64,000 nucleotides of DNA from Saccharomycodes ludwigii (Eukaryota; Ascomycota; Saccharomycetes; Saccharomycodales; Saccharomycodaceae). A program made the translations under genes and the position numbers. Below are positions 24,806-25,313 of the stretch, in pieces; the stretch's first letter is position 1; every line of letters starts with the position of its first letter. The stretch is taken from the NCBI RefSeq assembly GCF_020623625.1, contig NC_060202.1, positions 762,501 through 826,500 on the forward strand, written 5' to 3'. The notes beneath the pieces are model-generated. The model was given only the letters and a program-made list of their open reading frames with translations, was not told where the DNA came from and did no database searches.

Positions 24806-25313
24806 TGGATGCAGCGAGGTTCGAACTCGCGCCTGTTAACTTAACAGACTTGCATATTCATTATAAGTTTGTAATAGAGGGGAAGGTTCATGTATAACTG
24901 TTACCATACATATGTGTATGCTTATCACTAAGCCCTACATTTATTTGAGATGACGATATGTAGTGTCTTTTATATTTTAGGGGACAGGATAAACAGTTGT
25001 GCGTGTGTATACAGGTTCTTAATGATAACATAGCAGTTCTGCCGGTACTCTGTGTTGTAAACCCTAAAGCGCGCGAAAGCGCGTTTGTGTCATGTCACTT
25101 AATATTTCTTTTTTTTGTCCCTTGTTTGGAAATTAACCGCCGAAATATTTTTATACTATGGTGAACTCGTCTCCGATATTTCTTGCTATTTTGTAAAACT
25201 AGGTGCTATAAATGTTTAATTAACACAAAACCTTGATTGATTATTAGTTAAATGAACCAACCCCACTATAACTCATCCTGAAGCAAGCGCCTTAACCACT
25301 CGGCCATACACCC
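24806..25313 (-). tRNA. tRNA-Leu (anticodon CAG) split by an intron of about 422 nt
   Basis: Two halves on the minus strand, 25277-25313 and 24806-24854, make an 86-nt class II tRNA. Acceptor: GGGTGTA pairs with TGCATCC (5 Watson-Crick and 2 wobble pairs). The D-arm GCC-GAGTGGTTAA-GGC holds the A box TGGCCGAGTGG. Anticodon stem CTTGC in the first half pairs perfectly with GCAAG in the second. The loop is TT-CAG-G then T, with the break after position 37, the standard nuclear intron site. The long variable arm has CTGTTA/TAACAG pairing. T-arm GCGAG-TTCGAAC-CTCGC is perfect and contains the B box. Discriminator A and the long variable arm fit Leu; Ser tRNAs have G. A T6 terminator follows. Nuclear tRNA introns in yeasts are mostly below 100 nt, so this one is exceptional. 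Two unrelated degenerate halves are unlikely given four matching arms. Confidence 0.88.
24855..25276 (-). other. Long structured intron of tRNA-Leu(CAG)
   Basis: On the transcribed strand the intron has no T run longer than four, although it contains an A8 run (T8 on the other strand) and lies in a T-run-rich genome. That is expected if RNA polymerase III must read through it. Its ends are complementary: 25252-25269 (minus strand ATAGTGGGGTTGGTTCAT) pairs with 24874-24891 (minus strand ATGAACCTTCCCCTCTAT) with 15 of 18 Watson-Crick pairs, the rest U-U. This would bring the splice sites together. A GC-rich hairpin (CGCGC, four-base loop, GCGCG) lies at 25067-25087. The third base before the 3' splice site is A and can pair with U32, as the splicing endonuclease prefers. 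Confidence 0.7.

Follow-up and report, generated by a model that had tools for sequence, protein, structure and literature searches.

A tRNA-Leu(CAG) gene of Saccharomycodes ludwigii with a predicted 422-nt intron at the canonical position

Do two short pieces of DNA that lie 422 nucleotides (nt) apart in the genome of the yeast Saccharomycodes ludwigii make up one working tRNA gene? The question is raised by a stretch of 64,000 nt (assembly GCF_020623625.1, contig NC_060202.1, positions 762,501 to 826,500 of the forward strand; hereafter the window, with a GC content of about 30%), from which a preliminary description had built a class II tRNA-Leu(CAG) out of two such pieces. Here we report that the minus-strand segment 25313-24806 is, to judge from its sequence and from tRNA prediction with ARAGORN, a real and intact class II tRNA-Leu(CAG) gene, split by an intron of 422 nt that occupies the canonical position. 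We put at roughly 0.87 the probability that it is a functional nuclear gene whose canonical intron, of the ordinary kind, has grown to 422 nt, a reading drawn from the sequence of a single genome. The parts of the gene and of its predicted precursor are as follows, in window coordinates:

25277..25313, minus strand: exon 1, nt 1-37 of the tRNA, with the 5' strand of the acceptor, the D arm (A box), the 5' strand of the anticodon stem, the anticodon CAG and G37
24855..25276, minus strand: intron of 422 nt at position 37/38, predicted by ARAGORN
24806..24854, minus strand: exon 2, 49 nt, from nt 38 to discriminator A73, with the variable arm and the T arm (B box)
24796..24801, minus strand: run of six T (T6), 4 nt past the 3' end of the tRNA, the likely RNA polymerase III terminator by its sequence
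25279..25282, minus strand: exon side of the predicted anticodon-intron helix, loop nt 32-35 (UUCA), from the precursor fold and the pairing rule in other genes
24857..24860, minus strand: intron side of that helix, intron nt -6 to -3 (UGAA), followed by a 3-nt bulge, UA/U, in which the slash marks the 3' splice site, from the fold and from comparison
25252..25276, minus strand: 5' arm of a long predicted basal stem, intron nt +1 to +25, from the fold and an end-pairing test
24863..24891, minus strand: 3' arm of the same stem, intron nt -37 to -9, from the fold and the end-pairing test

Joined, the two exons fold into a structure of five arms (acceptor, D, anticodon, variable and T), and the joined form is named tRNA-Leu(CAG) by ARAGORN. 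The acceptor has 7 base pairs (bp), two of them G-U wobbles, the D arm has 3 bp in the ARAGORN drawing, the anticodon stem (CTTGC/GCAAG) and the T arm are perfect, the long variable arm can form a hairpin, and the discriminator is A. The features of a functional tRNA-Leu gene are thus all present, namely a complete class II cloverleaf, A73, A and B boxes and a terminator. The preliminary description had listed the same arms, discriminator and T6 run together with a distance of about 470 bp between the A and B boxes; all of these are borne out by the sequence or by ARAGORN, the box spacing by a count on the sequence. One base beyond the T6 run stands a run of five T (T5). Exons and intron together give a precursor of 508 nt. 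The gene has low-complexity flanks, with a TTATTC-type repeat upstream (window 25434-25498) and an A-rich tract downstream of the 3' end (24640-24702).

With introns of up to 600 nt allowed, ARAGORN scored the gene at 110.7, close to the 115.5 and 123.4 of the two intronless tRNAs in the window; from 20 dinucleotide-shuffled windows it obtained no prediction at all. ARAGORN with a raised intron limit therefore finds the gene, and the helices of both exons are intact. The gene was missed by ARAGORN run without introns and by Rfam at its gathering threshold. Users of tRNA finders should be aware that programs which do not allow for long introns miss such genes, and that a genome can then seem to lack a CUG-reading tRNA. 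From sequence alone the intron boundary is ambiguous by one base, and ARAGORN places the cut one base earlier than we do. In the other tRNA-Leu introns of the genome G37 ends exon 1, which favours the cut at 37/38, one nucleotide 3' of the anticodon and right after position 37 as first described, although this comparison itself assumes that boundary.

Around the 3' splice site the predicted structure of the precursor resembles that of other intron-bearing tRNAs in the genome. Folded without constraints, the 508-nt precursor pairs nt 32-35 with intron nt -3 to -6 at probabilities of 0.85 to 1.00, all four pairs being Watson-Crick, and the pairs of the basal stem that were printed have probabilities of 0.94 to 1.00. 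Prediction and comparison with other genes both point to an anticodon-intron pairing that leaves the 3' splice site in a 3-nt bulge. A pair between nt 32 and intron nt -3 was found in 26 of the 26 genes read from six tRNA families, and appears to be a genome-wide rule; two more of the eight families tried, tRNA-Trp and tRNA-Lys, did not match the patterns used and contributed no genes. If wobbles are counted, all four pairs form in tRNA-Leu(CAG), in tRNA-Leu(UAG), in all nine tRNA-Ser(AGA) genes and in seven of eight tRNA-Leu(CAA) genes, and are absent from tRNA-Ser(GCU) (0 of 6) and tRNA-Ser(CGA). The six bases that end the 422-nt intron, TGAATA, also end the intron of one of the eight tRNA-Leu(CAA) genes. 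The two ends of the intron pair with one another as well: ends of 40 nt do so at -27.3 kcal/mol, a value matched by 3 of 2000 shuffles and by none of 2902 control windows, and for ends of 50 nt equally good pairing was seen in 2 of 2000 shuffles and 4 of 2925 control windows. The fold of the intron has a z score of -2.6, and that of the whole precursor, tRNA arms included, one of -3.8.

Is this the only tRNA-Leu(CAG) of the genome? The sequence searched comprised 12,500,424 bases in 8 contigs, seven of them of 0.79 to 3.08 Mb. A DNA search with the joined exons matched only the two halves at this locus, one match each; it listed no related tRNA-Leu genes, despite the much that they share in the T arm, and its sensitivity is accordingly limited. 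Two D-arm patterns, each allowed one mismatch at most, picked up 17 and 20 genes of class II, and these 37, identified with ARAGORN and by eye, are eight tRNA-Leu(UAA), eight tRNA-Leu(CAA), one each of tRNA-Leu(AAG), tRNA-Leu(UAG) and tRNA-Leu(CAG), and 18 tRNA-Ser. Within the limited sensitivity of one DNA search and two pattern searches, no second tRNA-Leu(CAG) was found. A genome search with the 422-nt intron gave a single match, itself.

Other introns in the genome were drawn from a partial catalogue. A B-box pattern occurred at 169 places, against 36 for a reversed control pattern, and 100 of the 169 were listed. ARAGORN in intron mode made a call in 46 of the 76 stretches that cover 77 of these 100 places, nine of the calls having introns, the longest of 58 nt; the remaining 30 stretches could be chance matches or genes that ARAGORN misses. 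A tRNA family search scored 63 of 914 candidates. Care must be taken with the labels of intron mode, which named tRNA-Trp as Gly, tRNA-Arg(ACG) as Cys, tRNA-Ser(CGA) as Ile and one tRNA-Leu(CAA) as Val; these were read by eye. The tRNA-Ser genes of interest here are located as follows:

Stretch L055, positions 1493-1736, on contig C1 near 2832533: tRNA-Ser(CGA) with a 162-nt intron, the second longest in the partial catalogue
Stretches L050, L053, L054, L056, L058, L059, L060, L064 and L066: tRNA-Ser(AGA) genes

Lengthening of introns in this genome is not confined to the CAG tRNA, because tRNA-Ser(CGA) has an intron of 162 nt, tRNA-Leu(UAG), which was found once, has one of 83 nt, and introns of 9 to 59 nt are present in all nine tRNA-Ser(AGA) genes found (9, 20, 23 three times, 33, 47, 58 and 59 nt). 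In sequence the tRNA-Ser(AGA) introns differ widely, the exceptions being the splice-site pairing and the three introns of 23 nt; to our knowledge the tRNA-Ser(AGA) genes of Saccharomyces cerevisiae have no introns. The three longest introns found (422, 162 and 83 nt) all lie in genes found once each. Two further observations were made in passing. A tRNA-Arg(ACG) with a 17-nt intron was read by eye at L081:868-957, and a match to the snoRNA snR190 lies on the minus strand at window 30448-30646, barely above the Rfam gathering score (43.3 against 40 bits).

On the reading that we favour, RNA polymerase III would transcribe through the intron and TFIIIC would span the roughly 470 bp between the A and B boxes, a spacing far beyond that of ordinary genes; TFIIIC is described as flexible on this distance in some reports cited in a review (PMC4090602). 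The ends of the intron would pair in the pre-tRNA and so bring the splice sites beside the anticodon stem, with the 3' site in the predicted bulge adjoining the 4-bp anticodon-intron helix. As in established yeast tRNA splicing, the tRNA splicing endonuclease, whose family PF01974 has two matches over cut-off in the genome, would then cut both sites and a ligase would join the halves. The mature tRNA-Leu(CAG) would read as leucine the infrequent codon CUG, which accounts for 51 of the 12627 codons in the 24 open reading frames (ORFs) of the window, where TCG occurs 64 times and CUA 136 times. As for the expansion itself, the cell may have tolerated the lengthening of an intron in a tRNA that is single-copy and in low demand, an explanation that we prefer because other tRNAs found once have long introns and because CUG and UCG are infrequent.

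Several results weigh against parts of this account. The tRNA-Leu(UAG), whose intron measures 83 nt, reads CUA, and the 136 occurrences of this codon, which make it not so rare, fit poorly with the idea of low demand. In the precursor fold the anticodon stem reaches probabilities of just 0.44 to 0.73, and the minimum-energy fold places the 5' splice site not in a 3-nt bulge but at a 2-by-2 internal loop; opening one A-U pair there would leave three unpaired nucleotides. For intron ends of 30 nt, pairing as good was obtained in 242 of 2000 shuffles and 26 of 2923 control windows, which is not significant against the shuffles. The antisense strand of the intron folds with a z score of -2.4, similarly unusual to that of the sense strand, and the structure score alone is therefore no proof that the sense RNA is selected. 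The T6 run may be a weak terminator, as six U are reported to be in S. cerevisiae, where a longer run is said to be required for the polymerase to stop effectively (PMC4937561). As to passage of the polymerase, the longest T run on the sense strand of the intron is 4, which is weakly consistent with transcription through it. T5 occurs on one strand in 95.9% and on the other in 96.9% of 13666 overlapping 422-base noncoding windows; when the intron itself is shuffled the figures are 52.5% (dinucleotide, 5000 shuffles) and 43.1% (mononucleotide), so that 47.5% of the dinucleotide shuffles lack it too; moreover, the intron of tRNA-Ser(CGA) has a T5 inside it, which weakens the argument further. 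The lack of T5 is thus striking against noncoding stretches and not against shuffles of the intron, and we do not rely on it as a sign of passage.

A different cause of the intron's growth is suggested by the killer-plasmid hypothesis of Krassowski et al. 2018 (PMC5951914), in which a killer toxin selects against tRNA-Leu(CAG): a structured intron would slow maturation and lower the amount of the toxin's target tRNA, and selection would have driven its growth. This proposal competes with the tolerated-growth step alone and leaves the gene call as it is. It gains from the predicted structure of the intron (z -2.6) and from the fact that other yeasts of the Leu1 clade, in which that paper places the Saccharomycodaceae and in which CUG is leucine, share the tRNA, the canonical intron and the kind of expansion (PMC5951914). 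However, long introns are also found here in tRNA-Ser(CGA) and tRNA-Leu(UAG), and introns in nine of nine tRNA-Ser(AGA) genes. The search for killer-plasmid genes was made with PF03175, a polymerase family that includes those of killer plasmids, and gave no match over cut-off in the genome and one below it at 22.4 bits. We consider such selection unlikely at this locus, and the long introns of other tRNAs found once bear on the 2018 proposal that ties intron growth to selection against tRNA-Leu(CAG). A more speculative idea, which we regard as distinctly unlikely, is that no longer canonical intron is known from any nuclear tRNA and that selection keeps its structured 422-nt body, whether to set the rate of tRNA-Leu(CAG) maturation, and with it that of CUG decoding, or because the excised intron serves as a stable RNA.

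Two other explanations concern the gene itself. The locus could be a pseudogene, a tRNA-Leu(CAG) that an insertion disrupted and that has ceased to be expressed, with CUG read by tRNA-Leu(UAG), as is the case in Saccharomyces, which has lost tRNA-Leu(CAG) (PMC5951914); a tRNA-Leu(UAG) gene does exist in S. ludwigii. This is very improbable given that all the exon helices are intact, that the insertion lies exactly at the canonical intron position with splice-site pairing like that of other genes, and that no second copy of the insert was found in the genome. It is least likely of all that the intron is, or hosts, some other element, whether a mobile element, a group I ribozyme or a small RNA gene nested within it. 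A GC-rich hairpin lies within it and 422 nt falls within the length range of group I introns, but Rfam gave no match in the intron at the gathering threshold, and a lax search (E up to 10, 901 bases) gave two matches at chance level, group I intron models being among the matches of neither search. With one copy found in the genome, and longest stop-free stretches of 68 codons sense and 66 antisense, a group I intron, a nested known RNA, a mobile element and an ORF within the intron are all unsupported. Its position and splice-site pairing are instead those of tRNA introns spliced by proteins.

The S. ludwigii gene, which we thus read as a functional tRNA-Leu(CAG) gene with an expanded canonical intron, is a longer case of something already described. 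Expanded introns of 134-318 nt in the tRNA-Leu(CAG) ('tL-CAG-Z') of Leu1-clade yeasts were reported by Krassowski et al. 2018 (PMC5951914), and the present intron is less surprising because enlarged introns in the same tRNA gene had been published. As far as the main text of that paper describes them, the two agree in tRNA, anticodon, canonical intron, great length, predicted structure and clade, and both elude standard finders, tRNAscan-SE in some Kluyveromyces and default ARAGORN and Rfam for the S. ludwigii gene. They differ in size, with the 422 nt found here exceeding the 2018 upper limit for canonical tRNA introns by about one third. Saccharomycodes is not named in the main text of PMC5951914, whose figures or supplement may show a relative of this gene, and the open-licence literature yielded no report of a Saccharomycodes tRNA-Leu(CAG) gene or of a longer canonical tRNA intron, which does not imply absence elsewhere. 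If the gene works as proposed, it suggests that a tRNA found once in a genome can depend on the removal of a piece about five times its own length. The short introns of the eight tRNA-Leu(CAA) genes in the same genome, of 33 or 38 nt, share with it position 37/38, the anticodon-intron helix and the 3-nt bulge at the 3' site, and differ in being so much shorter than its 422 nt. Archaeal bulge-helix-bulge introns, as described in a review (PMC4090602), likewise have a 4-bp helix between anticodon loop and intron beside a 3-nt bulge; they measure 11-129 nt, and the S. ludwigii gene departs from them in the 2-by-2 loop predicted at its 5' site.
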